This document shows positions 8,834 to 53,710 of a DNA stretch of 64,000 bases, one piece after another. The stretch covers positions 1-64,000 of the forward strand of contig CANRPO010000010.1 in the NCBI GenBank assembly GCA_947632515.1, read 5' to 3'. Position 1 is the first letter of the stretch. Each line of letters opens with the position of its first letter. The stretch is from an uncultured Lachnospiraceae bacterium (GTDB lineage Bacteria; Bacillota; Clostridia; Lachnospirales; Lachnospiraceae). Position numbers and translations under genes: made by a program. The notes under the pieces were generated by a model. The model did no database searches. It saw only the letters and a program-made list of their open reading frames with translations, and was not told the origin of the DNA.

Positions 8834-8911
8834 GTTATGTAAACTTTCAAGACCACAAATCAAAAAGTTATGTAAACTTAATGGAAAAGTGGGATTAAAG
8901 ATTATGTAAAC
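8834..8911 (+). repeat. Array of three TTATGTAAAC motifs in the spoVAA leader
   Basis: Copies start at 8834, 8867 and 8901, all in the same orientation, spaced 33 and 34 bases. A variant (GTTATGTCAAC, 8971-8981) includes the spoVAA start codon. The array sits between the sigma-G-type promoter and the gene and would be in the leader RNA. The 8669-8973 gap holds nothing else beyond the terminator and promoter. Confidence 0.85.
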
Positions 8912-8973
8912 TTATAGAGCTGAGCCGTACCGCACACGATTCAAGGAAATTTATATGAATGGGAATGAAAGTT

Positions 8974-9609
8974 ATGTCAACTAGCAGACCGACAATCTAT
9001 ATTAAGGCGGAACAGAATGTGGAGCTGCAGACAGAGGACGTCTGCGTGAAGGATATTGCCAAGATCATGTGCGGCGACCCGAACACGCTGGCGAAGGTAA
9101 AAGCGATCAGGCTGCACCGGTTCAAGGAAGGACAGCCAAAGCGACAAGTCATCAGTCTGCTGAAGGTGATCGAGGAGATCGACAAGGTCTGTCCGGGCGC
9201 CGATGTACAGAGTATCGGGGAGCCGGCCGTTATGGTGGAACGTATCGATGTGGACAGGCACAAAGGGCCTGTGCAGACCATGAAACTGATCTTTGTGGCC
9301 TTGGTCAGTTTCTTCGGGACTTCCTTCACGATCATGGCATTTCACAACGACATCGGCATCAACGACGTATTTACGAAGATTTATGAGATGGTGACGGGAA
9401 ATGTGGGGGACGGCTACGGCATTTTGGAACTGTCCTACTCGGTTGGGCTGGCCGTCGGCATCATTGTCTTTTTTAACCACATCGGCGGCAGGCGGATCAC
9501 CAAGGACCCGACGCCCATCGAGGTGGAGATGCGCATCTATGAGGAGGACGTCAACAAGGCGCTGATCGAGACGGCGGACAGGGAGGGAAAGACGATCGAT
9601 GTTTCTTAG
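8974..9609 (+). CDS. spoVAA: Stage V sporulation protein AA
   Basis: 211 residues from the ATG at 8974; ATGs at 8959 and 8965 are in frame and AAGGA (8943) would suit 8959. The N-terminal half (1-98) is the soluble two-lobed SpoVAA region; two membrane spans follow (about 102-122 and 152-172). SpoVA proteins form the channel complex in the spore inner membrane that moves dipicolinic acid with calcium into the forespore and out at germination. Overlaps spoVAB by 11 bases. The start codon lies inside a copy of the dispersed motif (8971-8981). Confidence 0.92.
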   Translation: MSTSRPTIYIKAEQNVELQTEDVCVKDIAKIMCGDPNTLAKVKAIRLHRFKEGQPKRQVISLLKVIEEIDKVCPGADVQSIGEPAVMVERIDVDRHKGPVQTMKLIFVALVSFFGTSFTIMAFHNDIGINDVFTKIYEMVTGNVGDGYGILELSYSVGLAVGIIVFFNHIGGRRITKDPTPIEVEMRIYEEDVNKALIETADREGKTIDVS

Positions 9610-10096
9610 ACAGCTTTTACTGGCCGTCATCGGCGCAAGCAGCGGCCTGATCGTGTCGGCGGGGGTGTTTACGGTGTTGATCTCAGTGGGACTGATCCCC
9701 CGTTTCGCGGGCAAGATGCATGTGGCGCGCAAGATATTCATTTTGGAGGAGATGGTGGTGTTAGGCACGCTTGCGGGCGGATTCTTCAGCATTTTCAGCG
9801 ATTGGGGCATGGTGGGCCGATTCGTGCGGGAACACGCGCTGTTCGGTGAAAACGCCACGGAAGGGGTCTGGCGCTTTATCGGAACGATATTCCTGATCGT
9901 GTTCGGCGTGTTCGCCGGCATATTCGTGGGATGTCTTGCCCTCGCCATCGCGGAGATGCTCAACACGATCCCGGTCTTCGCCAGGCGGATCGGGTTCCGA
10001 CATGGTCTGGGGATCGCCATTCTCGCGGTGGCCTTTGGCAAACTGGTCGGCAGTCTGATCTACTTCACGGAACAGGTGTATTTGTACGGCGGCTGA
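9599..10096 (+). CDS. spoVAB: Stage V sporulation protein AB
   Basis: 165 residues with four to five hydrophobic segments and almost no soluble part, as expected of SpoVAB. The ATG at 9599 lies inside the end of spoVAA. SpoVAB works with SpoVAA in the dipicolinic acid channel; both are absent from some Clostridia such as C. difficile, so their presence is informative. A 168-base gap, rich in GGAAATAGAT-like repeats, separates it from spoVAC. Confidence 0.9.
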   Translation: MFLRQLLLAVIGASSGLIVSAGVFTVLISVGLIPRFAGKMHVARKIFILEEMVVLGTLAGGFFSIFSDWGMVGRFVREHALFGENATEGVWRFIGTIFLIVFGVFAGIFVGCLALAIAEMLNTIPVFARRIGFRHGLGIAILAVAFGKLVGSLIYFTEQVYLYGG

Positions 10097-10264
10097 CGGA
10101 GGGCGCGCACGGCTTTTGGGAGGACAGAGATGCCTGCGGCAGTGCGGGAAAGTCATACAGGGAAATAGATGAAGAGATGCAAGGAAATAGATGAATAGAT
10201 ATAAGAAAATATAGGAAACAGGAAAATGCAGCAAGACGGAATGGGACGGAAAGGAATAGCGGAT

Positions 10265-10753: not shown

Positions 10754-10794
10754 GTGGGGCCGATGGCGTTAAGAGACGATCTCATACAAAAAGA

Positions 10795-12074: not shown

Positions 12075-12827
12075 ATGGTGGATTTCGTGGGGGCAGGTCC
12101 CGGGGCTGCGGACCTGATCACGGTGCGCGGCAAAAAGCTGATCGGGGAGGCGGACTGCATCATCTATGCGGGTTCGCTGGTGAATCCTGAGCTGCTCTCC
12201 TACGCCTCCGGGGACTGTCTTATTTATAACAGCGCTAAGATGCACTTGGAACAGGTGCTGGGCGTTATGGAGGAAATGGAGGCACAGGGCAAAAATACGG
12301 TCAGACTGCACACGGGCGATCCCTCTCTGTACGGCGCGATAAGAGAGCAGATGGACGCTCTGCGAAAGAGGGGGATCCCTTTTCGGATCTGCCCGGGAGT
12401 CAGCAGTTTCTGCGGCGCGGCTGCGGCGCTGGAGGCAGAATACACGCTGCCCGAGGTGAGCCAGAGCGTGATCATCACACGGATGGAGGGCAGAACGGGC
12501 GTGCCGGAGCGCGAAAAGCTGCATCTTCTGGCGGAACACGGCGCGACAATGGTGCTTTTTCTCAGCGGCGGTATGGCCGGCCGGGTGCAGGAAGAGCTTT
12601 TGCGGGGCGCGTACACGGAAGATACGCCTTGCGCCATCGTCTACAGGGCCACATGGCAGGACGAAAAGGTGATTCGGGGGACTGTTGGAGAGTTATGTAA
12701 ACTTGCAGACGAGAACGGGATCACGAGTACGGCGCTTATTGTCGTCGGGGATGTTCTCGGTGATGATTACGGGCTGTCCAGGCTGTATGACAGACATTTT
12801 ACCACAGCTTACCGCAAAGGAGAGTGA
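12075..12827 (+). CDS. cbiF: Cobalt-precorrin-4 C11-methyltransferase
   Basis: 250 residues of the tetrapyrrole methylase fold. VDFVGAGPGAADLITVRG at the N-terminus, YAGSLVNPELL and LHTGDPSLYGA are diagnostic of CbiF/CobM. It methylates C11 of the corrin ring. GGAAAGGGAAATG gives its ribosome binding site. A copy of GTTATGTAAAC (12692-12702) lies in the gene and encodes Leu-Cys-Lys in GELCKLAD, using codons (TTA, TGT) that stand out against the CTG/TGC-rich surroundings. Confidence 0.95.
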   Translation: MVDFVGAGPGAADLITVRGKKLIGEADCIIYAGSLVNPELLSYASGDCLIYNSAKMHLEQVLGVMEEMEAQGKNTVRLHTGDPSLYGAIREQMDALRKRGIPFRICPGVSSFCGAAAALEAEYTLPEVSQSVIITRMEGRTGVPEREKLHLLAEHGATMVLFLSGGMAGRVQEELLRGAYTEDTPCAIVYRATWQDEKVIRGTVGELCKLADENGITSTALIVVGDVLGDDYGLSRLYDRHFTTAYRKGE

Positions 12828-14995: not shown

Positions 14996-15060
14996 GAGCT
15001 GTTTGCCCGCCGGACAAAAGGGCAGGCGGGATGATCGAAGGATCAGAAACGGAGAAAGTT

Positions 15061-15873
15061 ATGTTAACTATAGCGGGGATCGGGCCGGGAAAAAAGGAGG
15101 GTATGACCGAGGAAGTCTTACAGTCTTTGGAGACGTGCGACTGCATCGTGGGGTATACGGTATACACGGAGCTTGTGCGCGGCCTTTTCCCGGATAAGGA
15201 ATATTATGCCACGGCCATGACAAAAGAGGCGGAGCGGTGTCTGTGGGCCATCGGGCAGGCGAGAGCGGGGCGCGACGTGGTGATCGTGTGCAGCGGCGAC
15301 GGCGGCGTGTACGGCATGGCCGGACTGGTGTGCGAGCTGCTTGTGGAGGATGTGCCCACAGAAAACGCAGAAATAGACTGTGCGAAGGATCACGGCAGTG
15401 CGGGCGGTGTGACTGAAAAAGGCAGGCAGATCGGCGGCGTGGAGCTGCGGATCCTGCCCGGGGTGACGGCGGCGCTCAGCGGAGCGGCGATCTTAGGCGC
15501 GCCGCTGGCAAATGATTTCGCGGTCATCAGCTTAAGCGACAGGCTGACGCCCTGGGAACAGATAGAGAGACGTCTGCGGGCCGCAGCGGAGGCGGATTTT
15601 GCGATCTGCCTGTACAATCCGGCCAGCCGGGGGCGGCCGGAGCATCTGCGGCGCGCGTGCGGCGTGCTCTTGGAGAGCGGCCTCGAGGCGGACAGAATCT
15701 GCGGCGTGGCGCGCAACATCGGCAGGGAAGGGCAGGCGTGCCGGATCATGACGCTGGGAGCGCTGCGGGATTACGAGGCGGATATGTTCACCACAGTGTA
15801 CATCGGCAGCAGTGTGACGCGAAAGATCGGAGATTACATGGTGACGCCGCGGGGGTATCGCGGATGGACTTGA
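15061..15873 (+). CDS. cbiH: Cobalt-precorrin-3B C17-methyltransferase
   Basis: 270 residues. Starts MLTIAGIGPGKKEGMT, the glycine-rich S-adenosylmethionine loop of the tetrapyrrole methylases. VVIVCSGDGGVYGMAG, LPGVTAALSGAAILGAPL and LYNPASRGRPEHL are typical of CbiH/CobJ, which methylates C17 and contracts the ring. The start codon sits inside a motif variant, GTTATGTTAAC (15058-15068). An insert around residues 97-125 (Asp/Glu/Gly-rich) is not in typical members. The end overlaps cbiJ by 10 bases. Confidence 0.94.
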   Translation: MLTIAGIGPGKKEGMTEEVLQSLETCDCIVGYTVYTELVRGLFPDKEYYATAMTKEAERCLWAIGQARAGRDVVIVCSGDGGVYGMAGLVCELLVEDVPTENAEIDCAKDHGSAGGVTEKGRQIGGVELRILPGVTAALSGAAILGAPLANDFAVISLSDRLTPWEQIERRLRAAAEADFAICLYNPASRGRPEHLRRACGVLLESGLEADRICGVARNIGREGQACRIMTLGALRDYEADMFTTVYIGSSVTRKIGDYMVTPRGYRGWT

Positions 15874-16796
15874 TCGTGTTTGCGGGCACAAGCGAAGGGA
15901 GAAGACTGTATGATTTCTGCGTGGAGAGACGGATCGATGCGCTCTTTTGCGTGGCCACGGACTACGGGCGGGAGACGTTATGCGCCCCGTCCGGCGAGTC
16001 TTCTGCCGGATCGTCTGCGGGCGGAGATGCAGAGCCGTCGGGCCATCAGCGCATACAAGAGTTATGTAAACCCAAAATCCGTGTCGGCAGAATGGAGGCG
16101 AAGGAGATGGAGACGCTGTTTCGCACAGAGAACCCCCGCCTTGTGATCGACGCGACCCACCCCTACGCGGCGCAGGCGACGGAGAACATACAGGCCGCCG
16201 TGGAGCGGTATGTGCGGGCGGAGGGAGCGGAAAAACAGCTGTACTGCAGAGTGCGCAGGGAGACGCGGGAGCGGGAAGAGGCGTCTGCGGAAAGCTCCGT
16301 GGAGAGATTTGCGGACATGGCGCAGGCGATAGATTACCTGAACGGGACGCGGGGCAATGTGCTCGTCGCCACGGGGAGTAGGGAAATGGATACGTTATGT
16401 AAACTTAATGCCTACGCAGAGCGGGCCTATGTCAGGATCCTCCCCAACCCGGATATTTTGCAGGCTTTTCTGGACAGAGGATTCCCGCCCGGCCATATGA
16501 TCTGTATGCAGGGCCCCTTTACGGAGGAACTGAATCTGGCTCTAATGAGGCAGTGCGGCATACGCTATCTGCTCACGAAACAGTCCGGCGCGGCGGGGGG
16601 TTACCCTGAGAAACGCCGGGCGGCGCAGGAGGCGGGCGTGAAACTTCTGGTTATACAGCCGCCACGGGAGGACGCGGCCGGGTGCAGCGTGGAGGAGGCA
16701 CAGGAGATGATCTTAGAGCGGCTTGCCCTGCAAGGAGCGGGCGGATCGATGCGGGAGAGCGCCGCAGAGCATACAGGACGGAAACGGAAACCATGA
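15864..16796 (+). CDS. cbiJ: Cobalt-precorrin-6A reductase
   Basis: 310 residues from the ATG at 15864, inside the end of cbiH. Starts MDLIVFAGTSEGRRL, the nucleotide loop of CbiJ/CobK. It also has RLVIDATHPYAAQATENI and the C-terminal LLTKQSGAAGGYPEKRRAA. It reduces the corrin ring with a pyridine nucleotide. Two copies of GTTATGTAAAC (16061-16071, 16394-16404) lie in the gene and give ELCKPK and TLCKLN. The stop overlaps the next ATG (ATGA). Confidence 0.93.
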   Translation: MDLIVFAGTSEGRRLYDFCVERRIDALFCVATDYGRETLCAPSGESSAGSSAGGDAEPSGHQRIQELCKPKIRVGRMEAKEMETLFRTENPRLVIDATHPYAAQATENIQAAVERYVRAEGAEKQLYCRVRRETREREEASAESSVERFADMAQAIDYLNGTRGNVLVATGSREMDTLCKLNAYAERAYVRILPNPDILQAFLDRGFPPGHMICMQGPFTEELNLALMRQCGIRYLLTKQSGAAGGYPEKRRAAQEAGVKLLVIQPPREDAAGCSVEEAQEMILERLALQGAGGSMRESAAEHTGRKRKP

Positions 16797-19549
16797 AAAG
16801 ACAGACGGAGAACAAGAGGACGGCGGAAGGACAACTGTATATCATCGGCGCGGGGATGGGGGATCCGCGCACGCTGACGGTGGAGGCGCGGGAGGCGGTC
16901 GGCCGGGCGGCGTTCGTCATCGGCGCGGAGAGGATGCTTGCCCCCTACCAGAACGACAGGCGCTGTATCGCGGCGGGGCGCACCGACGATATTCTGCAGG
17001 CATTGGCGCGGGTGTGCGGGGAGCTGGCCGACGCGCGGACAGTGGCGGTGCTCATGTCGGGGGACAGCGGATTCTTCAGCGGCACGAAACAGCTTTTGGC
17101 CGCCTTAGGAGTCTCGCACGGGGGCAGCTGTGAGCCTTGTCCCGGGGTGGAGTATGCGGTGACCGTGCTGCCGGGCGTCTCGTCGCTGTCTTATTTTTGC
17201 GCCAGGATCGGCAGATCGTGGGAGGACGTGAAGATCGTCAATCTTCACGGAGCCAATGAGAATCTGTGGCAGGCGGCGCTGACCCATGAGAAGGTGTTTG
17301 CCGTCACGGGAGGCGATGTGCGGGAACAGCTCGCGGGGCTTGCGGAGCATGGCATGGGGGACGTCTGCGGCTATGTGGGCGAGCGCCTGTCCTATGAGGA
17401 CGAGCGGATCAGGCAGGGGACGGTGGCGCAGCTGTGCGCCCACGCCTACGACAATCCGGCGGTCCTGTACCTGGAAAATCCCCGGACAGTGGGACATCAT
17501 CTGACCGGGCTGCCCGACGACAGTTTTGCGCGCGGAAAGACGCCCATGACCAAGGCGGAAGTGCGCGCCGTGGTGATGAGTAAGCTGCGCGTGCGGGAGG
17601 GGGAGATCGTCTACGACATCGGCGCGGGCACGGGGGCCGTGTCGGTGGAGCTGTCGCTTGCCGCCTCCAAAGGCATGGTCTTTTCCGTGGAAAAAGATGC
17701 CGACGCGATAGAGTTATGTAAACTTAATAAAGAACGATTTAGTTTACATAACATGAAGATCATCGAGGGGGAGGCTCCCGATGTCCTGCGCGGCCTCCCG
17801 GCTCCCGACGCGGCCTTTATCGGCGGCAGCGGCGGGCGTCTGGAGGAGATCGTCGCCTGTCTGCGGGAGAAGAATCCCTCCGTCCGTCTGGTCGTCAACA
17901 CGGTCACGGTGGAGAGTACGGAGCGCGCGCTCAGGCTGCTGGAGGACGGCTCTTTTGCCCATGCGGAGGCAGTGCAGATCCAGGTCAACAGGATCAAAAA
18001 AGCGGGGAAGAGCCATATGGTGGCGGCGCAGAACCCGGTCACCATTGTGACGGCCACGGGGCGCGGCGACAGGGGCTCGGGAATCGGCGAGGCGTCCGGC
18101 GGCGGGCCGGGGGTGCTGATCGCGGGGAACGGCAGCGGCAGCGGCAAGACCACGTTGGTGTGCGGCATTCTCGCCGCTCTGCGGCGAAAGGGGCTCAGGC
18201 CGCGCGGGTTCAAATGCGGGCCGGATTACATCGATCCCTCTTATCACAGGGCGGCCTCCGGCGTCCCCTGTTACAATCTGGATCCCTTCTTTACGGAGGG
18301 GGATGTGCTGCGGCAGTTATACGAGAGACATATGCGCTCCTGTGACATCGGCGTGGTGGAGGGCGTCATGGGCTACTATGACGGCGTGGGATTCACGGAG
18401 GAGTCCGGCACCTACACTGTGGCGAAGGAACTGGGGCTCCCTGTGATTTTGACCGTGGACTGTAAGGGGATGGGCAGCTCCGTGATGGCGTCCGTGGAGG
18501 GATTTCTGCGCCACAGGCAGCCAAGTTACATCTATGGCGTTATTTTCAACAGGATCGCGCCGCCGCTCTACGAACAGGCCGCGCGCGCGGCGCGGGCTCT
18601 GGGCGTCGTGCCGCTCGGGTATCTGCCAGAGTCGGAGGAGCTCAGGCTGGACAGCAGGCATCTCGGTCTGGTGATGGCGCAGGAACTCGAAGATTTCGCG
18701 GCGCTTGCAGAGCGCATGGGGGAGGCGGCGGCGCGCACCGTAGATCTGGACGGTATTGTGAGACTGGCGCAGACTGCGGTTTCTCCTTCTCGCCCTCTGC
18801 TTGTGCAGATAGATAAAATAACACATGAAACGGAAAACGACGGGGAGCGGCCGGGCTGCAGGATCGCGGTGGCGCGGGACGAGGCGTTCTGTTTTCTCTA
18901 TGAGGACAACCTGAACTTTCTGCGGGAGCGCGGCGCGCAGATCCTGCCCTTCAGCCCGCTGCACGACAGCGCGCTGCCGGAGTGCGACGCGCTGTACTTG
19001 AGCGGCGGCTATCCGGAGCTGTATGCCGCGCAGCTGGAAGAGAATGTCTCCATGCGGGAGGAGATTCGGGAAAAGATTGAGAGCGGCCTGCCTGCGATCG
19101 CGGAGTGCGGCGGTTTTCTGTATCTGCACGACAGAATTCAGGCGGGAGACGAAGGCCCTAAGGGGGAGAAGACTTTTTACAGTATGGCGGGCGTCATCGG
19201 CGCCGATGCGGTGGGAGAGCGGCGTAGGGGGCGGTTCGGTTATATCGAGGCGACACTCGCGAAGGACTGCCTGCTGGGACGTGGAGGCGATACCTTTCGG
19301 GCGCATGAGTTCCACTACTGGACGTCGCTTGCGGACTGCGCCGATCTGGAGATATACAGGCCTGGGAACGGTTCGTCGTGGCGGGAAGGATTCTGCACGG
19401 ACACACTGTACGCGGGATTTCCGCATCTGTATTTCTACGGCAGCCCCAAAGTGGGCGAAAGTTTTCTGCGCGCTGCCGGAGAGTACGCGGCAAGGCATGA
19501 GCGGAAGAAAGACGGAAACAGCGCGGGAGAGCGGACGGAACACAGATAG
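16793..19549 (+). CDS. Triple fusion CbiE-CbiT-CbiA (C5/C15 methyltransferase with cobyrinate a,c-diamide synthase)
   Basis: 918 residues in one open frame from the ATG at 16793. Residues ~14-215 are CbiE (IIGAGMGDPRTLT, LMSGDSGFFSG, VLPGVSSLSYFCARIG). Residues ~250-425 are CbiT (MTKAEVRAVVMSKLRV, DIGAGTGAVSVELS). From ~440 comes CbiA, with a P-loop AGNGSGSGKTTLV, CGPDYIDPSYH and the C-terminal amidase Cys in AIAECGGFLYL (~771). The protein would methylate C5 and C15, drop the C12 carboxyl, then amidate side chains a and c with glutamine and ATP. CbiE-T fusion is well known; adding CbiA is unusual. An inverted motif pair sits in the CbiT part. Confidence 0.93.
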   Translation: MKRQTENKRTAEGQLYIIGAGMGDPRTLTVEAREAVGRAAFVIGAERMLAPYQNDRRCIAAGRTDDILQALARVCGELADARTVAVLMSGDSGFFSGTKQLLAALGVSHGGSCEPCPGVEYAVTVLPGVSSLSYFCARIGRSWEDVKIVNLHGANENLWQAALTHEKVFAVTGGDVREQLAGLAEHGMGDVCGYVGERLSYEDERIRQGTVAQLCAHAYDNPAVLYLENPRTVGHHLTGLPDDSFARGKTPMTKAEVRAVVMSKLRVREGEIVYDIGAGTGAVSVELSLAASKGMVFSVEKDADAIELCKLNKERFSLHNMKIIEGEAPDVLRGLPAPDAAFIGGSGGRLEEIVACLREKNPSVRLVVNTVTVESTERALRLLEDGSFAHAEAVQIQVNRIKKAGKSHMVAAQNPVTIVTATGRGDRGSGIGEASGGGPGVLIAGNGSGSGKTTLVCGILAALRRKGLRPRGFKCGPDYIDPSYHRAASGVPCYNLDPFFTEGDVLRQLYERHMRSCDIGVVEGVMGYYDGVGFTEESGTYTVAKELGLPVILTVDCKGMGSSVMASVEGFLRHRQPSYIYGVIFNRIAPPLYEQAARAARALGVVPLGYLPESEELRLDSRHLGLVMAQELEDFAALAERMGEAAARTVDLDGIVRLAQTAVSPSRPLLVQIDKITHETENDGERPGCRIAVARDEAFCFLYEDNLNFLRERGAQILPFSPLHDSALPECDALYLSGGYPELYAAQLEENVSMREEIREKIESGLPAIAECGGFLYLHDRIQAGDEGPKGEKTFYSMAGVIGADAVGERRRGRFGYIEATLAKDCLLGRGGDTFRAHEFHYWTSLADCADLEIYRPGNGSSWREGFCTDTLYAGFPHLYFYGSPKVGESFLRAAGEYAARHERKKDGNSAGERTEHR
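17713..17752. repeat. Perfect inverted pair of the dispersed motif inside the CbiT coding region
   Basis: GTTATGTAAACT (17713-17724) and AGTTTACATAAC (17741-17752) are exact reverse complements separated by 16 AT-rich bases. The DNA is in frame and encodes IELCKLNKERFSLHNMK, which also fits the CbiT family. The segment is far more AT-rich than its surroundings. Confidence 0.9.
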
Positions 19550-19825: not shown

Positions 19826-20905
19826 ATGATGTGTGAAGAAGAATTATGGAAACTGAAAACAGAGCCGCTTGACGTCCATGCCATGGAACAGGCGCGCGCC
19901 CGTCTGGACGATATTGCCAAGCCCATCGACGGGCTGGGGCAGTTTGAGAAGATACTGGTGCAGCTTGCGGGCATACAGAGGACGGCGGATATTGGCTGTG
20001 AACGGCGGGCCGTTCTCGTCATGTGCGCCGACAACGGCGTTGTGGAGGAGGGCGTGGCGCAGACCTCGGACGAAGTGACGGCGCTTGTCGCCGCCAACAT
20101 GGCAGCCGGGCGCTCCTCCGTCAACCGCATGGCGGCGGTGGCCGGGGCGGATGTGCTGGTCACGGACATCGGGATCCGCGGGGCTCTGTCCTGTGAGAAT
20201 GTGAGAGCGCGGAAGATCAGAAACGGCACGGCCAACTTCGCCAGGGAGCCTGCCATGACCAGACAGGAGGCTCTGGCGGCGCTCCACGAGGGGATCGTCT
20301 GGGCGCGGGAATGCCGCGATCAGGGTTACTCGCTGCTGGGGGTCGGGGAGATGGGGATCGGCAACACCACCACGGCGACGGCGGTGTGCTGCGCGCTCCT
20401 GGGGCTGTCTCCGGAGCGGATGACCGGGCGCGGCGCGGGTCTGGACGACGAGGGGCTTGTGCGGAAACGGGCGGTGATCTCCCGGGCCATTGAAGGCTAT
20501 CGTTTGGAGCGGGCGGATGCGCTGACAGTGCTGGCCGCCGTGGGCGGGCTGGATATTGCGGGAATAGCAGGCGTTATGATAGGCGGCGCGCTCTGCCGTA
20601 TGCCCGTTGTGCTGGACGGCCTGATCACGGAGGCGGCGGCTCTCGTGGCGGACAGGCTTGTGCCAAGCGTCAGGCGGTATCTCATCGCCTCCCATTTGGG
20701 GAGGGAGCCGCTCTGTCAGGCGGTGACGGAGGAACTTGCGCTGCATCCTATCATCTGCGCGGACATGGCGCTGGGCGAGGGAACGGGAGCGGTCATGCTC
20801 TTGCCGCTGTTGGATATGGCGCTCAGCGTGTACCGGCAGAACGACTCCTTCGCGCAGATGCACATGGAAGGTTACAGGCGGTACCGGGAGGGAGACGTTC
20901 TATGA
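19826..20905 (+). CDS. cobT: Nicotinate-nucleotide-dimethylbenzimidazole phosphoribosyltransferase
   Basis: 359 residues from the ATG at 19826 (19829 also possible). PIDGLGQFEKILVQLAGIQ, VLVMCADNGVVEEGVAQT with the base-binding Asn, EMGIGNTTTATAVCCAL, TGRGAGLDDEGL and the C-terminal catalytic Glu in LGEGTGAVMLLPLLD are all present. It makes alpha-ribazole phosphate, the lower ligand of cobalamin. Overlaps cobU by four bases (ATGA), so the two are translationally coupled. Confidence 0.95.
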   Translation: MMCEEELWKLKTEPLDVHAMEQARARLDDIAKPIDGLGQFEKILVQLAGIQRTADIGCERRAVLVMCADNGVVEEGVAQTSDEVTALVAANMAAGRSSVNRMAAVAGADVLVTDIGIRGALSCENVRARKIRNGTANFAREPAMTRQEALAALHEGIVWARECRDQGYSLLGVGEMGIGNTTTATAVCCALLGLSPERMTGRGAGLDDEGLVRKRAVISRAIEGYRLERADALTVLAAVGGLDIAGIAGVMIGGALCRMPVVLDGLITEAAALVADRLVPSVRRYLIASHLGREPLCQAVTEELALHPIICADMALGEGTGAVMLLPLLDMALSVYRQNDSFAQMHMEGYRRYREGDVL

Positions 20906-21540
20906 TGCTTGTCATTACGGGGGTGAGCGCAAGCGGCAAGTCCGCCTGTGCGGAGAGGCGGGCCGTGGAGCTTGCCGACGGCGGGCCGCTGTACTATGTC
21001 GCGGCCATGGAGCCCTATGGGGAGGAAGGCAGACGGCGTATCGAGAGACACCGCAGGCTGCGGGAGGGCAAGGGCTTTGTCACAGTGGAGTGTTACCGGG
21101 ATATTGAGAGAGCGGTGGACATGATCGGCCCGCCGCGCTGTATGGAGGCCACGGTATTGGTGGAGTGTATGTCCAATCTGCTCGCCAACGAGATGTTCTC
21201 CCGCGGGGCAGAGCCGGAAACTGCGGAACTTGGGCCGACAGATCCGACCGGGCGGAGCAGCGCGGCGGACGTCTGGCGGGAAGGCGGGGACGAGCGGCAG
21301 CGGCGTCTCCTCGACAAGATGCTGTCCGGGCTGTCCTATCTGTCCGGACAGTGCAGAAATCTCATTGTCGTCACCAACGAGGTGTTCTCAGACGGCGGTG
21401 CTTATGGGGAGGAGACGGAAGTTTACATAAAACTGCTTGGAGCCCTCAATCAGAGACTTGTGGAAATGGCGGACGAGGCGGTGGAAGTGGTGTATACAGT
21501 GCCGCTGCATATCGGGACGCGGAGAGATAACGTTATGTAA
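20902..21540 (+). CDS. cobU: Adenosylcobinamide kinase / guanylyltransferase
   Basis: 212 residues. P-loop VITGVSASGKSACAE, the YVAAMEPYGEEGRRRIERHR block with the guanylylated His, VLVECMSNLLANEMF, and IVVTNEVFSDG fit CobU. An insert (~93-120) of low complexity separates two core blocks. It activates adenosylcobinamide with GTP. The dispersed motif occurs twice: GTTTACATAAA (21421-21431, coding VYIK) and GTTATGTAAAC (21532-21542), the latter containing the stop codon so that the protein ends Val-Met. Confidence 0.94.
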   Translation: MMLVITGVSASGKSACAERRAVELADGGPLYYVAAMEPYGEEGRRRIERHRRLREGKGFVTVECYRDIERAVDMIGPPRCMEATVLVECMSNLLANEMFSRGAEPETAELGPTDPTGRSSAADVWREGGDERQRRLLDKMLSGLSYLSGQCRNLIVVTNEVFSDGGAYGEETEVYIKLLGALNQRLVEMADEAVEVVYTVPLHIGTRRDNVM

Positions 21541-21597
21541 ACTAGGATCCGCTTTGCCTGACACGCGGCCGTTTCCGCGCCGCAGAAAGGACAGGAT

Positions 21598-22371
21598 ATG
21601 AAATCTTTGCTCAACGGTTTTTGCATCGCTTTTTCCATGTATTCCAAGATCCCCGTGCCGAAAGCAGAGTGGAATCAGCGGAATATGAAGTATGCGCTCT
21701 GTTTTTTTCCTGTGATCGGGCTTGTCATCGGGGCGTTTCTCTGGGCGTGGGGCGAGCTGTGCGTCTCTGCGGCGGGGGAGCTTGGCACGATGACCTTCGC
21801 CTTAGTGGGCGCGGTGATCCCGATTATCATAACAGGCGGTATTCATATGGACGGCTTTCTGGACACGGCCGACGCCCTGCACTCCTATGAGAAGAAGGAG
21901 AGAAAGCTGGAGATCCTGAAAGATCCTCATGTGGGCGCTTTTGCGGTGATCGCGGCGATCTGTTACTTTCTGCTCTATGTGGCAGGACTGGCACTGATGC
22001 GGACGCGAAGACAGTTTTTGCTTCTGGCGCTCAGTTTCGTTATATCCAGAACCCTGAGCGGCATGAGTCTGGTGTGGTTTTCGGCGGCGAAGAGAGAGGG
22101 AACGCTGTACTCTTTCGCCTCTGGGGCGGACAGAAGGACGGTGCGGGCAGCGCTCGTCACGATCCTGGCGCTGTGTTTTGTCAGTGCGATTCTGATCTAT
22201 CCTGTGCCCGGCGCGGCCATGTCGCTTGCGGCGATGTGGGTCTGGACATACTATTACTACATGTCGCTAAAGCAGTTTGGCGGCATTACGGGGGATCTGG
22301 CAGGATATTTCCTGTGTCTTTGCGAGTTGTCGAGCGTGTTGGTGATTGGACTTTTAGGAAAAGTTATGTAA
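21598..22371 (+). CDS. cobS: Adenosylcobinamide-GDP ribazoletransferase
   Basis: 257 residues, integral membrane with six or so spans. FSMYSKIPVPKAEW, then GGIHMDGFLDTADALHSYEKKERKLEILKDPHVGAF (substrate-binding acidic motif) and the C-terminal GGITGDLAGYFLC identify CobS. It joins activated cobinamide to alpha-ribazole, giving cobalamin. AGAAAGGA lies before the ATG. As in cobU, the stop codon is within GTTATGTAAAC (22363-22373) and the protein ends Val-Met. Confidence 0.95.
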   Translation: MKSLLNGFCIAFSMYSKIPVPKAEWNQRNMKYALCFFPVIGLVIGAFLWAWGELCVSAAGELGTMTFALVGAVIPIIITGGIHMDGFLDTADALHSYEKKERKLEILKDPHVGAFAVIAAICYFLLYVAGLALMRTRRQFLLLALSFVISRTLSGMSLVWFSAAKREGTLYSFASGADRRTVRAALVTILALCFVSAILIYPVPGAAMSLAAMWVWTYYYYMSLKQFGGITGDLAGYFLCLCELSSVLVIGLLGKVM

Positions 22372-22389
22372 ACCAAATAAAAAGGAGAT

Positions 22390-25221
22390 ATGATGGGCGG
22401 GAAAAAACTGGTGGTGGGCATTCTGGCCCATGTGGATGCCGGCAAGACCACGCTGGCGGAGAGCATACTGTATCTTAGCGGCTCGATCCGCAGTCTCGGG
22501 CGGGTGGATCACGGGGATGCCTTTCTGGATACAGACAGCCAGGAGCGCGACCGGGGTATCACGATCTTTTCCAAGCAGGCGCTCTTCTCCTGGCGGGACA
22601 TGGAAGTCACGCTGTTGGATACGCCCGGGCATGCGGATTTCTCGGCGGAGATGGAGCGCACGCTCCAAATCCTTGACTGCGCAATCCTCGTCATAAACGG
22701 CGCGGACGGCGTGCAGGGGCATGTGCCGACGCTCTGGCGGCTGCTCAGACGCTACGGCATCCCCACGTTCCTTTTTGTCAATAAAATGGATCAGCCGGGC
22801 ACGGACGAGGCGGCGCTTATGCGGGAGCTGAAAGACAGTCTGGACGAGGGCTGCGTTTCGTTTGGCGCGCGGGACGAGGCGTTTTACGAGGAGATCGCAG
22901 TCTGCGACGAGGCGCTTTTGGAACGGTATCTGGAGGCGGATGCGGACAGTGCGGCTGCAAGCGGCGGGGCGCAGACGCTCATCGACCGCGGGACGATCGC
23001 TTCTCTCGTGGCGAGACGGCAGATTTTTCCGTGCTATTTCGGCTCGGCGCTCAAAGTGGAGGGTGTGGAGGAACTGTTGAACGGCGTGGACGACTATACT
23101 AAGATGCCGTCCTATCCGGAGGCTTTTGGCGCGAGAGTCTTCAAAATCGCCAGAGATGAGCGGGGCAGCCGCCTGACCTATGTGAAGGTCACGGGCGGGA
23201 CGCTGCGGGTGAGACAGACGGTGCGGACCCACGGCGGACGCGGGACATCTCTTGGGGAAGACGGGACAGCGCCGGCGACGGAGGAGAAGACAGACCAGAT
23301 CCGCGTGTACTCCGGCAGCAAGTACACGCTGCTGCAGGAGGCGTCCGCCGGGACGGTCTGCGCCCTGACGGGTCTGACTACGACCTATTGCGGAGAAGGA
23401 CTCGGCGCGGAGCAGGGGGACACGGTTCCGCTCCTTGCGCCTGTCATGACCTACCGCGTCGTGCTGCCGGAGGGCTGTGACGTCTATGGGATGTATCAGA
23501 AGTTATGTCAACTTGAAGAGGAGGAGCCGCAGCTCCATATCGTCTGGCGGGAACGGATCAGTGAGATACAGGCGCAGCTCATGGGTGAGGTGCAGATCGA
23601 GATATTGAAAAATATCATCAGACAGCGCTTTGACACAGAGGTAGATTTCGACGAGGGCAGCATCGCCTACCGGGAAACCATTGCCGCGCCCGTGGAGGGC
23701 GTTGGGCATTACGAACCGCTGAGACACTACGCGGAGGTACATCTGCTTTTAGAACCGGGCGAGCCGGGCAGCGGGCTGGTCTTCGGGACGCGGTGCGGCG
23801 AGGACATGCTGGACCGCAGCTGGCAGCGCCTTGTGTTGACGCACTTGCAGGAAAAGGAACATCTCGGCGTGCTGACGGGTTCGCCTGTGACGGATATGCA
23901 GATCACCCTGGTGGCCGGACGGGCGCACTTAAAACACACGGAGGGCGGCGATTTCAGACAGGCCACCTACCGGGCCGTCAGACAGGGATTGTGCAAGGCG
24001 CAGAGTATCCTGCTGGAGCCGGTATACGCCTTTCGGCTGGAGCTGCCGACGGCGATGATCGGGCGCGGCATGACCGACATGCAGGGCAGAGGAGCGAAGT
24101 TCGGCGCGCCGGAGACGGCGGGGGACTGCGCCGTGCTGACGGGAACGGTCCCCGCCGCCCGCATGGCAGGCTACCAGTCGGAGGTTCTGTCCTACTCGGG
24201 CGGAAAAGGCAGACTGTACACGGAGTTCAAAGGCTACGAGCCGTGCCGGAACGCGGAGGAGGTCATCGCAAAGATCGGCTACGACGCGCTGCGGGATACG
24301 GAGAATCCGTGCGGTTCCGTGTTCTGCGCTCACGGCGCCGGATTCGTGGCGGAGTGGGATCAGGTAGAGTCGTATATGCACTTGGACAGAGTGCTGCCGG
24401 AGGAAGAAGAGCGGGAGAACAGCCGCCGTTACAGGGAGGAGAACGCGGCGGGTCGTCAGGGAGACTTGGCGCGGGACAGGGCGGAAAGGGAGACTTCCGC
24501 CGCAGACTTTATCGGGCAGGATGAGATCGACGAGATCATGGAGCGCACTTATGGGACGAAAGAGCGCAGGAGACAGGGCTGGGCGCGGACCATACGCGCC
24601 GAAAGGCATACAGAGGGAGAGGAAAAGCCCGACGGCAAAGAGACGAAAGACGGCTTTCGCCGGTCGAGAGAGACGGGAGCGGCGTCAAGCGCTGCACAGC
24701 AGGAGGAATATCTGCTGGTGGACGGCTATAACATTATTTTTGCATGGGAGGAGTTAAGGGAACTGGCGAAGGAGAATCTGGACAGCGCGCGGGGCAGGCT
24801 GATGGATATTCTGAGTAATTTTCAGGGGTATCGCAGGATGAGGCTGATCCTTGTGTTCGACGCCTACAAGGTCAAGGGGAATCCCGGCAGCACGGCGCGC
24901 TATCACAATATCGACGTGGTATACACCAGAGAGGCGGAGACGGCGGATCAGTATATCGAAAAGGTGACGCATCAGATCGGCAGGAAACACCGTGTACGCG
25001 TGGCGACTTCCGACGGGCTGGAACAGCTCATCATCATGGGCGCGGGAGCGGTCCGCGTTTCGGCGGGCGAGCTGCACGAGGAGATCATGGCGGCGGGCGA
25101 GGAACTGCGCCTGCTGTCCCGGGAACTGCGCGGGAAGTCGCAGGAAGGCAGGAATTACCTTATGGAGGATGTTTCCGACGAGGTGGGAGCATATGTGGAG
25201 CGGACATTGGACGGCGAATAG
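22390..25221 (+). CDS. TetM-like ribosome-binding GTPase fused to a Rae1/YacP-type NYN nuclease domain
   Basis: 943 residues. Residues 1-~670 are an elongation-factor-G/TetM-type GTPase: G1 AHVDAGKTT, RGITIF switch, DTPGHADF, NKMDQ, then domains II-V including GMTDMQGRGAKFGAPETAGD. A charged linker (~672-770) leads to an NYN/PIN-fold domain (~772-925) starting YLLVDGYNIIF, with DAYKVKG, YTREAETADQYIE and VATSDGLEQ, as in B. subtilis Rae1, which cuts mRNA in the ribosomal A site. The fusion suggests one protein that docks on a ribosome and cuts RNA there. Drug resistance is not shown. AAAAAGGAG precedes ATG 22390. It carries a motif variant (23502-23512). Confidence 0.9.
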   Translation: MMGGKKLVVGILAHVDAGKTTLAESILYLSGSIRSLGRVDHGDAFLDTDSQERDRGITIFSKQALFSWRDMEVTLLDTPGHADFSAEMERTLQILDCAILVINGADGVQGHVPTLWRLLRRYGIPTFLFVNKMDQPGTDEAALMRELKDSLDEGCVSFGARDEAFYEEIAVCDEALLERYLEADADSAAASGGAQTLIDRGTIASLVARRQIFPCYFGSALKVEGVEELLNGVDDYTKMPSYPEAFGARVFKIARDERGSRLTYVKVTGGTLRVRQTVRTHGGRGTSLGEDGTAPATEEKTDQIRVYSGSKYTLLQEASAGTVCALTGLTTTYCGEGLGAEQGDTVPLLAPVMTYRVVLPEGCDVYGMYQKLCQLEEEEPQLHIVWRERISEIQAQLMGEVQIEILKNIIRQRFDTEVDFDEGSIAYRETIAAPVEGVGHYEPLRHYAEVHLLLEPGEPGSGLVFGTRCGEDMLDRSWQRLVLTHLQEKEHLGVLTGSPVTDMQITLVAGRAHLKHTEGGDFRQATYRAVRQGLCKAQSILLEPVYAFRLELPTAMIGRGMTDMQGRGAKFGAPETAGDCAVLTGTVPAARMAGYQSEVLSYSGGKGRLYTEFKGYEPCRNAEEVIAKIGYDALRDTENPCGSVFCAHGAGFVAEWDQVESYMHLDRVLPEEEERENSRRYREENAAGRQGDLARDRAERETSAADFIGQDEIDEIMERTYGTKERRRQGWARTIRAERHTEGEEKPDGKETKDGFRRSRETGAASSAAQQEEYLLVDGYNIIFAWEELRELAKENLDSARGRLMDILSNFQGYRRMRLILVFDAYKVKGNPGSTARYHNIDVVYTREAETADQYIEKVTHQIGRKHRVRVATSDGLEQLIIMGAGAVRVSAGELHEEIMAAGEELRLLSRELRGKSQEGRNYLMEDVSDEVGAYVERTLDGE

Positions 25222-29226: not shown

Positions 29227-29287
29227 GATATATTATGTCAACCTAATCCGCAGCGGCGGACAATACGGGCGCGGGAGAAAATGCGGT

Positions 29288-30286
29288 ATGCGTTTGGTGA
29301 TCGGCGGTTCATGGCAAGGCAAGTGGGAATATGTAAAAAGAAAATACGGGCTGGAGGATGCGCAGATATGGCAGGGCACGTCCCCGTCGCTCCCCCCCGG
29401 CACAGCCGCCATATACGGTTTACATAATATAATCAAACGGATGCTGTCGGAAAGCGGCGCGGAAAAGGAGCCGGAGCGGTATGTCCTGGGCCGCGTCAGG
29501 GAATGGGTACGGCTCTGTCCCGACTGTATTCTGATCTGCGACGAGGTGGGCGGCGGCATCGTGCCTGTTAAGAGAGAGGAGCGGGACTACAGGGAGTGCG
29601 TGGGAAGAGTGCTGTGCGAGCTGGCGCGGGAGGCGGACTCGGTGGAGCGCGTGTACTGCGGCGTCGGGCAGACGATCAAGCGCACGGTCTTGGTGGCGCT
29701 GCTGCGCCATGGCGCCACGGAGAGCAATCTGCGGGGACGGTATCTCGGCGTCACCGACGAGCCGCTTAGTGAAGAGGGCATTGCGGCGCTGCGGGAGCGG
29801 AGACAAGAAGGGCTCTATCCGCCTGTGGCGCGGGTCGTGACAAGTCCGCTGTGCAGATGCAGGCAGACCGCGCAGATACTCTATCCCGATATTTCAGGAG
29901 AGGTCGTACAGGAACTTCGCGAGACAGATTTCGGACTGTTTGAGGGCAAAAATCACGGGGAGCTTATGGCGGACAAGAGGCTGCGGGAGACGTATCAGGC
30001 GTGGATCGACAGCGGCGGCAGGCTGCCTTTCCCGGAAGGGGAGTCCATGGAGCAGAGTATGAGACGGTGCGGACGGGCTTTTGAACAATTACTGCCGACG
30101 CTGACAGACAGTACGGCCCTCATCGTTCACGGCGGGACGATCATGGGGATTCTGGGTACGCACATTCTCCCAAGACGGGATTATTTCGACTATCGGTGCG
30201 ACAACGGGACGGGGTATCTGTGCCGCGTGGAACTGACGGGGGACGGAGCGCTGTACCGCATGGAAATCGCGCGGCGTCTGGGATAA
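29288..30286 (+). CDS. Fusion of a CobU-like nucleotide-binding domain with CobC-type alpha-ribazole phosphatase
   Basis: 332 residues. The N-terminal ~130 residues (MRLVIGGSWQGKWEYVKRKY and later CDEVGGGIVPV) resemble CobU but with an altered P-loop. The C-terminal domain starts LVALLRHGATESNLRGRYLG, a histidine phosphatase with catalytic His in RHG, the RCRQTAQ block, LRETDFGLFEGK, and a second His in IVHGGTIMG. CobC removes the phosphate from alpha-ribazole phosphate or adenosylcobalamin phosphate. A classical CobU is also encoded at 20902, so the N-terminal part may be a non-catalytic or specialised copy. Motif copies lie before (29232) and within (29418) the gene. Confidence 0.82.
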   Translation: MRLVIGGSWQGKWEYVKRKYGLEDAQIWQGTSPSLPPGTAAIYGLHNIIKRMLSESGAEKEPERYVLGRVREWVRLCPDCILICDEVGGGIVPVKREERDYRECVGRVLCELAREADSVERVYCGVGQTIKRTVLVALLRHGATESNLRGRYLGVTDEPLSEEGIAALRERRQEGLYPPVARVVTSPLCRCRQTAQILYPDISGEVVQELRETDFGLFEGKNHGELMADKRLRETYQAWIDSGGRLPFPEGESMEQSMRRCGRAFEQLLPTLTDSTALIVHGGTIMGILGTHILPRRDYFDYRCDNGTGYLCRVELTGDGALYRMEIARRLG

Positions 30287-40071: not shown

Positions 40072-40154
40072 AGGCACACCGTTGCGGGTGGGCGGTTCCC
40101 GAAAGGGACGGCCGTCTGCAGCGCGGTATATCTATCATAAAGGAGGATGAAGTT

Positions 40155-40532
40155 ATGTTAACTAAAATTTCTACAGACAAGGCGCCGGCAGCGATCGGAC
40201 CGTACTCACAGGGGATCGTCGCGGGAGATTTCCTGTTCGCGTCGGGGCAGATTCCGATCGATCCCGCCACGGGAGACATCAGGGGCGGCGACATCACCGA
40301 ACAGGCCGAACAGGTCATGAAGAACGTGGGGGCGATTCTCAAGGAGGCGGGCGCGGACTACGGCAAAGCCGTAAAGACGACCTGCTTTCTGGCGGAGATG
40401 GCGGATTTCGCGGCCTTCAACGCGGTGTATGAGAAATATTTCACGGAGAAACCCGCCAGAAGCTGTGTGGCGGTAAAACAGCTCCCCAAAGATGTGCTGT
40501 GCGAAGTGGAAGTCACGGCGTATCTGAAATAG
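40155..40532 (+). CDS. ridA: RidA family reactive imine/enamine deaminase
   Basis: 125 residues. KAPAAIGPYSQGIVAGDFLFASGQIPIDPATG, the catalytic Arg in ARSCVAVKQLPKD, and CEVEVTAYLK at the C-terminus are typical. RidA hydrolyses 2-aminoacrylate-type intermediates from PLP enzymes. AAAGGAGG precedes the ATG, which is inside a motif variant (GTTATGTTAAC, 40152-40162). Confidence 0.94.
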   Translation: MLTKISTDKAPAAIGPYSQGIVAGDFLFASGQIPIDPATGDIRGGDITEQAEQVMKNVGAILKEAGADYGKAVKTTCFLAEMADFAAFNAVYEKYFTEKPARSCVAVKQLPKDVLCEVEVTAYLK

Positions 40533-40541
40533 ATTATGTGA

Positions 40542-40621
40542 GTTATGTAAACTTAAAGATTTGGGCCTGTGCCGCATAGTAGTTTACATAACATATAATA
40601 CGCAAACGAGGTTTACATAAT
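40542..40621. repeat. Three motif copies between ridA and aroK
   Basis: GTTATGTAAAC (40542-40552) faces GTTTACATAAC (40582-40592), a widely spaced inverted pair; GTTTACATAAT (40611-40621) ends two bases before the aroK start. Together they fill the gap. Confidence 0.88.
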
Positions 40622-43121: not shown

Positions 43122-43188
43122 GTTTACATAATATATGAAAAACGTGAAGAGACTTCAAACAGGAAATGGACGAATTAGTTTACATAAA
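43122..43188 (-). repeat. Two motif copies upstream of the GH3 gene
   Basis: GTTTACATAAT at 43122-43132 and GTTTACATAAA at 43178-43188, both in the same orientation. They lie in the 43091-43201 gap, the second 13 bases before the start codon. Confidence 0.85.
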
Positions 43189-50106: not shown

Positions 50107-50170
50107 CGCTAAAGCTGCGCATATACATGTGTATGCGCATGGGATGCGGATGATAAATGGTTTACATAAT

Positions 50171-51889: not shown

Positions 51890-51958
51890 CGGCGGCGGAT
51901 CAGGGCGGGAAATGGTAATGATCCGCACAAAAAGCATACAATAGGAACGGAGGCTTAC

Positions 51959-52984
51959 ATGAAACTGTTATCGGTAGCTGTACCATGCTATAATTCGGAA
52001 CCATACATGAGGAAGTGTATCGATTCTCTGCTTGTGGGCGGGGAGGATGTGGAGATACTGATCGTTGACGACGGCTCCACGGACAGGACGGGCGCTATCG
52101 CGGACGAGTACGCGGCGAGACATCCTTCCGTTATCAAGGTGATCCACAAGGAGAACGGAGGGCACGGCTCCGCTGTCAATGCAGGACTGGCCCATGCTGC
52201 CGGATTGTATTTCAAGGTGGTGGACAGCGACGACTGGGTGAAGGAGAGCGCCTACTACAGGATACTGGAAGTCCTTCGGGACATCACCTCCGGCGATTCC
52301 ACTCTCGACATGTTGGTCAGCAACTTCGTCTACGAGAAGGAGGGCGAGGCGCGCCACAAGGTCATGAAGTACAGACACGCCCTGCCGCAGGATCGGATCT
52401 TTACCTGGAGTGATGTAAAGCATTTCCACAAGGGGCAATACATACTGATGCACTCCGTCATCTTTAGGACGAGACTGCTTAAGGAATGCGGACTGAAACT
52501 GCCGGACAACACATTCTATGTGGACAATCTCTTCGTGTTTGAACCGCTTCCGTTTGTGCGCAACATGTATTACCTTGACGTCAATTTTTACCGCTATTAT
52601 ATCGGCAGAGAGGGGCAGTCCGTCAACGAGAAGGTCATGATCTCCAGGATCGATCAGCAGATCCGGGTCAATAAGATCATGGTCGATTACCTGACGGCAA
52701 ATATGGACAAGGTCTGCGGCAGGCGCAAACTGAAAAACTATATGATCAACTATCTGGAGATCATCACGGTCATCTCTTCCATATTGCTGATTCGCTCCGG
52801 CACGGAGGAAAATCTCGCGAAGAAACAGGAGTTGTGGCAATATATAAAGAAAAAAGACCTGAGACTCTACATGAGGCTCAGGTACGGGGTGCTCGGCAAT
52901 TCCATGAATCTGCCCGGAAAAGGCGGCCGGAAAATATCGGTGGAAGGGTATAAGATCTGCCGGCGCTTTTTCAAGTTTAACTAA
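51959..52984 (+). CDS. Family 2 glycosyltransferase
   Basis: 341 residues. The GT-A start LLSVAVPCYNSEPYMRKCIDSLL, ILIVDDGSTDRTGAIADEYA and the DxD-like VVDSDDWVKE are typical GT2. It would transfer a sugar from a nucleotide donor to a cell-surface acceptor. AACGGAGG precedes the ATG. The C-terminal ~120 residues are basic and helical with no span. It is followed by a convergent PAP2 gene. Confidence 0.9.
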   Translation: MKLLSVAVPCYNSEPYMRKCIDSLLVGGEDVEILIVDDGSTDRTGAIADEYAARHPSVIKVIHKENGGHGSAVNAGLAHAAGLYFKVVDSDDWVKESAYYRILEVLRDITSGDSTLDMLVSNFVYEKEGEARHKVMKYRHALPQDRIFTWSDVKHFHKGQYILMHSVIFRTRLLKECGLKLPDNTFYVDNLFVFEPLPFVRNMYYLDVNFYRYYIGREGQSVNEKVMISRIDQQIRVNKIMVDYLTANMDKVCGRRKLKNYMINYLEIITVISSILLIRSGTEENLAKKQELWQYIKKKDLRLYMRLRYGVLGNSMNLPGKGGRKISVEGYKICRRFFKFN

Positions 52985-53005
52985 GCGTCGGCAGATCAGA
53001 CAGAC

Positions 53006-53710
53006 TCAGATGCTCTCGGGTTTTCTCTTGCGGCGGTTCTGCCAGTTGTGGTAGAGCGTGTACAGCACGTCGGAATGATATACGATGCCGTACATGATCC
53101 CCGCCATGATAAAGGCTGTGAGCACATCATAGGCCGAGTGCTGCTTAATGAGCATGGTTGACATAATTATTGAAACGCACAGGACAAGAGAACCGATGCG
53201 AACTGCCTTGTGCTTTTTCAGTTTTCGGCTTTTCATGATGGCGATGTGACAGCCCAGCGAGTTGTACACATGGATGCTCGGCCACAGATTCGTGGGAGTG
53301 TCTACTCTGTACAGGGCGGCTACCATCCGCGTGAAAATGTTGTCCCGCGGCATGACGTAAGGCCGCAGATGGTGTCCGTTAGGCCACAGTGTGGACACCA
53401 GCAGGAAGATTGTCATTCCTGTGCAGAGAAACACGAAAATCTTAAAGTAGTCGTCCCTGTCTGTCAGGAAGAAGTACCCCACCGTCACGACGACGTAGGC
53501 AAACCACAGCATGTAGGGGACGACAAATACCTCGCAGAATGGGATCAGGTCGTCGAGCGCCACGTGAATGACCTGATAACGATTCACAACAGCGTGTTCC
53601 AGGTGATTGAACCACGCCAGATATATGACGGCGTAGATGATCAGCGGAATCCCGTGCCAATACTTTTGGACAAACCGAATGAACGGCTGCTTTTGCCGAT
53701 AAGTCTCCAT
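53006..53710 (-). CDS. PAP2-superfamily membrane phosphatase
   Basis: 234 residues with six spans. The acid phosphatase signature is visible in degenerate form: LRPYVMPRDN, then NLWPSIHVYNSLG (His) and IKQHSAYDVL (His). Members dephosphorylate lipid or polyprenyl phosphates at the membrane. A motif variant (GTTGACATAAT, 53157-53167) lies in the gene, where it gives Ile-Met-Ser-Thr. The convergent end with the glycosyltransferase gene leaves only 21 bases between stops. Confidence 0.87.
   Translation of the reverse strand: METYRQKQPFIRFVQKYWHGIPLIIYAVIYLAWFNHLEHAVVNRYQVIHVALDDLIPFCEVFVVPYMLWFAYVVVTVGYFFLTDRDDYFKIFVFLCTGMTIFLLVSTLWPNGHHLRPYVMPRDNIFTRMVAALYRVDTPTNLWPSIHVYNSLGCHIAIMKSRKLKKHKAVRIGSLVLCVSIIMSTMLIKQHSAYDVLTAFIMAGIMYGIVYHSDVLYTLYHNWQNRRKRKPESI

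Follow-up and report, generated by a model that had tools for sequence, protein, structure and literature searches.

Motif sites in the window

We analysed a window of 64,000 nucleotides on contig C10 (CANRPO010000010.1, positions 1 to 64,000) of an uncultured Lachnospiraceae bacterium (GCA_947632515.1, here G000), whose assembly comprises 3.13 Mb in 66 contigs and is 84% complete. The window contains cobalamin genes and many dispersed copies of a ten-base motif, TTATGTAAAC. There are 22 exact copies and eight with one mismatch, and these 30 matches compare with a mean of 1.80 and a maximum of seven in 100 dinucleotide shuffles of the window. A preliminary description of this DNA had counted the same 22 exact copies and listed 29 of the 30 matches; its sites hold, although its + strand coordinates included the preceding base and were one base low. 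The match missing from its list, TTATGGAAAC at 19844..19853 (+), belongs to a variant that is not enriched and is probably a chance match. The flanks are free of the motif, as had been claimed, with no matches in 1–8834 or 53167–64000.

The first sites form a tandem group of three exact motifs at 8835, 8868 and 8902 (8835..8911, +, spacing 33 and 34) before spoVAA (Pfam), and a variant TTATGTCAAC lies near the spoVAA start (8972..8981, +). This tandem group is unaligned in every relative. An exact motif at 12693..12702 (+), in a tetrapyrrole-methylase gene (12075–12827, previously called CbiF), is kept in all seven aligned species. Another methylase gene (14980–15873) contains a variant TTATGTTAAC near its start (15059..15068, +). 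The cbiJ gene contains two exact motifs, one at 16062..16071 (+) that is kept in G005, the sole aligned species, and one at 16395..16404 (+) that is kept in four of four. Gene 16682–19549 contains an inverted pair, 17714 (+) and 17742 (−), set 28 bp apart (17714..17751). The pair recurs with the same 28-bp spacing in G005 and G011; G013 and G036 keep one member, and both are changed in G028.

Open reading frame 20902–21540 contains an exact motif at 21421..21430 (−), which is kept in G005, G011 and G013 and lost in G028. Its stop codon is overlapped by another at 21533..21542 (+), again kept in G005 as the sole aligned species. An exact motif likewise covers the stop codon of gene 21598–22371 (22364..22373, +); G011 keeps it, G005 differs by one base, and it is lost in G013, G028 and G036. 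Variants TTATGTCAAC occur within gene 22390–25221 (23503..23512, +) and in an intergenic position (29233..29242, +). A CobU/phosphatase gene contains an exact motif at 29418..29427 (−), kept in G011 and lost in G005, and the CobD/CbiB gene one at 31049..31058 (+), kept in G011, G005 and G036 and lost in G028. A tandem group of four follows cbiB at 31363, 31385 (variant TTATGTAAAT), 31406 and 31428 (31363..31437, −, spacing 22, 21 and 22). G011 keeps 31363 and 31406 and G005 keeps 31428, the remaining positions being alignment gaps.

Farther along, a variant TTATGTTAAC lies at the start codon of a RidA-type gene (40153..40162, +), and a cluster of 40543 (+), 40582 (−) and 40611 (−) occupies 40543..40620 between this gene and that for shikimate kinase. 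G005 keeps all three members, and 40611 is also present in G036 and G017. Two exact motifs at 43122 and 43178 (43122..43187, −), between the genes for DNA polymerase III delta and a GH3 protein, are unaligned in every relative. The last sites are an exact motif in gene 49910–51889 (50160..50169, −), kept in G005 and lost in G017, and a variant TTATGTCAAC in open reading frame 53006–53710 (53157..53166, −). Part of the variants in the window, including some over start codons (for example 40153), may be chance matches.

The motif is read in frame on the sense strand as Leu-Cys-Lys at 12693, 16062, 16395, 17714 and 31049, a recurrence that the preliminary description had pointed out. A search for a cobalamin riboswitch near 10907–33058 gave nothing over the Rfam threshold; the sole match in the window was a tRNA at 62314.

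Distribution of the motif over the chromosome

The motif marks one chromosomal domain of a Lachnospiraceae genus and is not a cobalamin feature. A genome-wide count, which had been proposed as the way to refute a special status for the motif, yielded 67 exact copies in G000 and six copies of the reversed word. Of these 67 copies, 22 fall in the window, against 1.4 predicted by an even spread. Contigs C6, C10 and C15 together carry 47 of the 67 copies on 8% of the genome. A third-order Markov model predicts 0.27 copies for these domain pieces (C26, C6 beyond 82 kb and C10:1–8000 were left out of the inside set, the latter two holding no copies), against the 47 observed. The density of the exact word per Mb is 134 in the first 82 kb of C6, 317 in C10 after 8 kb, 103 in C15 and 160 in C26. 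A looser word, TTATGTNAAC, is also found mainly on these four contigs. The original placement of the motif in and around the cobalamin region was thus too narrow, with copies on the remainder of C10 as well as on C6, C15 and C26.

C6, C10 and C15 are largely collinear with one gene run in relatives, represented by G005 C1 (211.7 kb) and, more rearranged, by G017 C23 (431 kb). We identified 34 of the 64 exact copies of G005 on C1, which makes up 6.6% of that genome, and 58 of the 107 copies of G017 on 366 kb of C23 (10% of the genome). Densities in relatives reach 161 per Mb on G005 C1 and 89 per Mb on G011 C5. Overall, the ten-base word occurs at ~90–320 per Mb in the domain core, compared with 11 per Mb elsewhere in G017. 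Outside the domain of G017 there are 11 copies, against one reversed copy, in 965 kb (38 pieces), a low level that exceeds the control. G017 C1 and C4, at 58 and 70 per Mb, are joined to the same run through G011 C5 and the G000 contigs C15 and C26; with their raised density they were kept out of the outside set and are reported apart. Other genomes with a rich contig include G066 (73 copies vs 20 reversed; 25 on contig C10) and G098 (90 vs 13; 43 on contig C7).

Motif density also varies within the domain. On the domain contigs, 2-kb stretches below 42% GC contain five copies in 126 kb, compared with 137 in 786 kb of the remainder. This agrees with the motif-free AT-rich flanks pointed out in the preliminary description, and the low-GC, motif-poor stretches look like recent arrivals.

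We considered whether the sites belong to a cobalamin regulon. Six cobalamin loci, from other genus members with a more distant CbiD (51–53% identical), examined over 20 kb each, hold 0, 0, 1, 1, 0 and 0 exact copies. Moreover, for most cobalamin genes of the window the G017 domain has nothing corresponding at the equivalent position, yet it carries the motif. A cobalamin regulon was rejected because of these two observations. Closer cobalamin loci (CbiD 70–80%) do carry the motif, with 13 copies in G011, 13 in G005, five in G013, nine in G036, three in G019, one in G018 and two in G028; these are pieces of 5 to 51 kb, among which those of G005 and G011 are shown to lie within the domain.

Conservation of the sites

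The exact word outlasts other ten-base words at syntenic positions in relatives, a comparison that the preliminary description had called for. At blastn-aligned positions, with alignment gaps scored as lost, retention of the exact G000 word is 26/35 in G005, 10/11 in G011 and 12/15 in G017. All other 10-mers are kept at 18.1%, 16.2% and 7.6%, and 10-mers with two G or C at 17.3%, 15.3% and 11.8%, respectively. For the window sites alone, retention is 10/11 in G011, 13/17 in G005, 4/6 in G013, 5/7 in G036, 1/1 in G018, 1/1 in G019 and 1/2 in G017. G028, a member with few motifs, keeps one of six aligned window sites in its cobalamin operon (contig C87), perhaps through natural decay of the sites or because the operon lies outside the domain.

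About 30 of the 47 sites on C6, C10 and C15 are intragenic, on both strands and in several frames (an automatic gene model called 15 sites intergenic and misplaced a few). Together with an exact conservation that is 4- to 10-fold that of other 10-mers, this supports the earlier suggestion that the word is kept by selection on DNA rather than protein, even inside genes. The intragenic positions also bear on whether a transcription factor controlling a regional regulon uses the sites as operators, a reading that we consider quite unlikely. Close intergenic clusters such as 8835–8911, 31363–31437 and 40543–40620 are what operators would look like. Yet most copies lie within genes, no common function links the adjacent genes examined (sporulation, cobalamin, DNA polymerase III delta, shikimate kinase, glycosidases), and the copies track chromosome position.

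Anatomy of the sites

To describe the sites we pooled 163 exact copies from seven contigs of several species, counting orthologous copies separately. The extended profile is approximately R-W-R-TTATGTAAAC-Y-W-W, the base after the word being C in 48% and T in 44% of the sites. No conserved sequence extends beyond ~3 bases on either side. Neighbouring sites are close more often than expected, with 30 at no more than 120 bp compared with ~3.2 expected. Their spacings are 17, 19 (three times), 22, 24, 28–30, 33–35, 39 and 43–60, and four lie at 96–118.

The tandem clusters resemble the binding sites at transposon ends, a likeness that rests on the spacing and would suit remnants or ends of a mobile element. 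The lack of a conserved flank past ~3 bases and the orthologous places of the copies inside conserved genes argue against such an origin, as do the sparser occurrence in AT-rich stretches (5/126 kb vs 137/786 kb) and the regional restriction. Nor was the genome-wide spread of an uptake sequence or methylation word seen, the motif being regional with a low level outside the domain. We find a mobile-element or uptake and methylation origin hardly credible. Among the roles proposed in the preliminary description, a chromosome signal fits; given a regional motif that recurs at orthologous places with no flank conserved past ~3 bases, methylation, an uptake signal and element remnants are poor candidates. 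Tn7-like ends, considered from the spacing of the groups of three and four tandem sites around the operon, were also rejected, as single copies occur in conserved genes at orthologous places.

With respect to replication, 92 of the 163 copies are oriented along its direction and 71 against it, as expected of a largely non-polar site; in G017 the numbers are 31 and 30. Polar replication-fork stops or translocase-orienting (KOPS/SRS-like) sites would require a single orientation per arm, which is contradicted by these counts. A domain on one arm resembles one side of a fork trap and the slight lean of 92 vs 71 has the right form, but the lean is small and almost vanishes in G017, and we regard this explanation as very improbable.

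Variation within the word is restricted. Beside 139 exact copies inside the domain, four one-base variants are raised: TTATGTCAAC (18 copies), TTATGTTAAC (11), TTATGTAAAT (8) and TTATGTAAAA (4). The other 26 of the thirty possible variants have 0 to 2 copies each. (The outside set for these variant counts is 925 kb of G017, with one 20-kb piece in it twice.) The clearly raised variants have either C or T in place of A at position 7, or T or A in place of C at position 10, and no other position is involved.

Match to the XerD arm of dif

We compared the motif with the right half of dif, which we take to be the XerD arm. The dif site of Bacillus subtilis is given as ACTTCCTAGAATATATATTATGTAAACT in an excerpt of a published survey (PMC3025954). 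Its bases 18–27 equal the motif at ten of ten positions, and its eleventh base is the T found at 44% of the 163 sites. The same excerpt gives TTATGTTAAAT as the ending of dif in Escherichia coli and TTATGTCAAGT as that in Frankia alni (PMC3025954). Both of these arms also differ from the motif at positions 7 and 10, although the G of Frankia at position 10 is not seen here.

The other half of dif has no counterpart at the sites. Bases −14 to −7, which cover most of the would-be place of the XerC arm, show little or no consensus among the 163 sites, and no XerD arms facing each other at 4–10 bp were found in the seven contigs. The motif has the XerD arm in common with dif, the site of chromosome-dimer resolution. 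As described in the excerpted survey, dif is a 28-bp element with both arms whose position is correlated with the skew change (PMC3025954), whereas the motif occurs as many half-sites with no upstream XerC consensus.

A XerD protein scoring over the TIGR02225 cut-off is encoded in three of the four genomes searched: G000 (C8:12399), G005 (C4:102897) and G022. The G005 protein matches the solved XerD structure 1a0p (E 6e-59). The G017 xerD gene (C23:101626) scores 250 bits against a cut-off of 329.6 and has unread bases; it stands at ~102 kb on the contig that carries the domain, towards the domain edge. On both G005 C4 and G017 C23, the gene order around xerD follows that of the domain's outer part. 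Contigs carrying dnaA lie outside the domain in G000, G005 and G017.

Occurrence in related genomes

Across the genus, we counted the looser word and its reversed control in 36 further genomes, and the word exceeded the control at least twofold in 29 of them (for example 149 vs 13 and 160 vs 19). Excess was also detected in other genomes of the same family, namely G253 (70 vs 19), G262 (42 vs 16), G326 (37 vs 14) and three of four genomes of g31. The genus g127, from another family, has a mild excess (for example 27 vs 9), and the complete genome of GAM79 (G065) has no clear excess (10 vs 6).

Interpretation as sites of SMC unloading

Karaboja et al. in 2021 reportedly found that SMC unloading at the terminus of B. 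subtilis depends on XerD. XerD is characterized as a sequence-specific SMC unloader at that terminus in excerpts of three papers (PMC12322038, PMC8357415, PMC13220808). According to one of these excerpts, blocking SMC on one side lowers its occupancy on both sides, as with XerD (PMC12322038), and an excerpt of a further study extends XerD unloading, an experimental result in B. subtilis, to other bacteria on the basis of Hi-C patterns at dif (PMC13342612).

Given the excess of copies, their regional clustering and conservation, the arm identity, the lack of a XerC arm, the near lack of polarity and the presence of a xerD gene, we consider it likely that the motif copies form a field of predicted XerD half-sites, dif right arms without the XerC arm, that unload SMC. 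Here TTATGTAAAC(C/T) would be the half-site of the tyrosine recombinase XerD (RipX), corresponding to the right arm of Firmicutes dif. Dozens of copies would be maintained over ~0.6 Mb of one arm, as measured in G017, some standing alone and others in tandem sets of two to four. With no partner arm at a suitable distance, XerD would bind the half-sites but not recombine them, and once bound it would free SMC condensin complexes coming from the origin, as at the B. subtilis terminus. Many weak stops could form a graded unloading zone, with the clusters acting as stronger stops. Sites on one arm could suffice because an arm-zipping complex would be released whole, and both orientations suit a largely non-polar unloader. 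Nearness to the terminus, XerD binding and SMC unloading are the parts of this reading that we infer. In simple terms, the motif probably tells a DNA-folding machine where to let go.

Several observations weigh against half-sites that unload SMC. First, across the domain contigs read the sign of the GC skew stays the same, save in three 5-kb windows near zero; with no flip, the domain is confined to a single chromosome arm and does not straddle a terminus. The sole terminus-type skew change found in G017 (C18, ~200 kb) is almost motif-free (of the 264 kb of C18, 260 kb were read, 240 kb of them as a single profile, and the starts of 24 contigs besides C23 and the ends of 16 were sampled). Second, no convincing dif was detected in the contigs scanned, and genus-wide dif-pattern searches gave no clear one; an excerpt of one study places SMC unloading at dif itself (PMC13342612). 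Third, occurrence is uneven. Three of the 36 genus members have little or no excess of the looser word, G022 (76 vs 64), G023 (46 vs 45) and G028 (50 vs 37), and G022 encodes XerD despite its slight excess. In 294 genomes of the order the excess is missing from most other genera, including most others of the family, and in G097 (67 vs 16 reversed) the copies are more spread, with 12 and 13 on the two richest contigs. The field, on one arm, may lie mid-arm or on the side of the terminus that faces the origin.

Two dif candidates were tried and rejected. G017 C23:339358 matches dif at 26 of 28 positions and has orthologues in five other genomes (L213–L217, L219), and it lies in a conserved coding gene. 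In these orthologues the XerD arm and spacer are largely kept, and the XerC arm drifts to 8/11 in G000 and 5/11 in G005. G017 C18:202440, near the skew change, matches at 20 of 28 positions, which is within chance, as 122 stretches of the contig reach at least 18. A dif pattern with two mismatches has matches in 41 of 41 genomes; among the matches listed, two strings are each shared by four genomes; one of the two falls in a 314-aa open frame, and the G017 pieces examined contain no close match to either. A loosely dif-like sequence among these matches, TATAATATAGATAATGTTA, recurs in G006 C20, G007 C94, G020 C51 and G023 C46.

The one-armed position of the domain away from the skew change, and the three genus members without clear excess, among them G022 with its XerD, would also suit a different domain-organising protein, MatP-like or nucleoid-associated, whose site happens to equal the XerD arm. 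We think this unlikely: both the ten-base identity with the XerD arm and the sharing of the same two variable positions would then be coincidence.

The proposed XerD half-sites resemble the XerD/SMC unloading system of B. subtilis in the XerD-arm word, the presence of a XerD gene, the concentration in one region and the lack of strict orientation. They differ in that 34 to 61 exact sites are found per domain contig set, over 0.2–0.6 Mb of one arm and with no skew change. The sites of the field are written into genes and kept across species. A second likeness is to matS, a longer palindrome that is bound by MatP in the Ter macrodomain of enterobacteria. As with matS, many copies lie in one chromosome domain and, as proposed here, would act on condensin; the word itself is unrelated to matS and is not palindromic. 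MatP is described as an unloader of MukBEF in an excerpt of PMC8669397.

Judging from titles and opening abstracts, none of the papers listed from an open-licence library gives an account of a field of XerD half-sites of this kind in the group. We tentatively suggest that the genus might have a sequence-coded SMC-unloading domain of ~0.6 Mb on one arm, with some 50–75 XerD half-sites uncoupled from dif, and that DNA settling there, even a whole cobalamin operon, might be gradually overwritten with the word. If true, such a zone, one-sided and with its unloading distributed, would be a new arrangement for chromosome folding, and the place of condensin release could be read from sequence alone in a group without experiments. 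Half-sites alone would also separate XerD unloading from recombination, and selection on DNA folding would be strong enough to alter codons in metabolic genes. Site density varies among members of the genus, which opens the idea to comparative test.

Other features

Two further words, ATTAGAATAG (14 copies) and TCTATTCTAA (13 copies), lie far over expectation on G005 C1 (212 kb), and their excess probably represents a local repeat array. G022 (6.1 Mb), a member without motif excess, has 59 matches to the XerD model, indicating very many integrases.

The first 8 kb of the window (1..8000) form an AT-rich segment of 36% GC that contains no motif and looks like a recently acquired, integrated-element-like sequence. 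It carries a tyrosine-recombinase gene (1509–2822, +) whose matches to the XerA and XerD models fall far under the cut-offs. Within the domain, a 51% GC stretch encodes a ToxN-type toxin of a type III toxin-antitoxin system (Pfam) at 34634–35227 (+).

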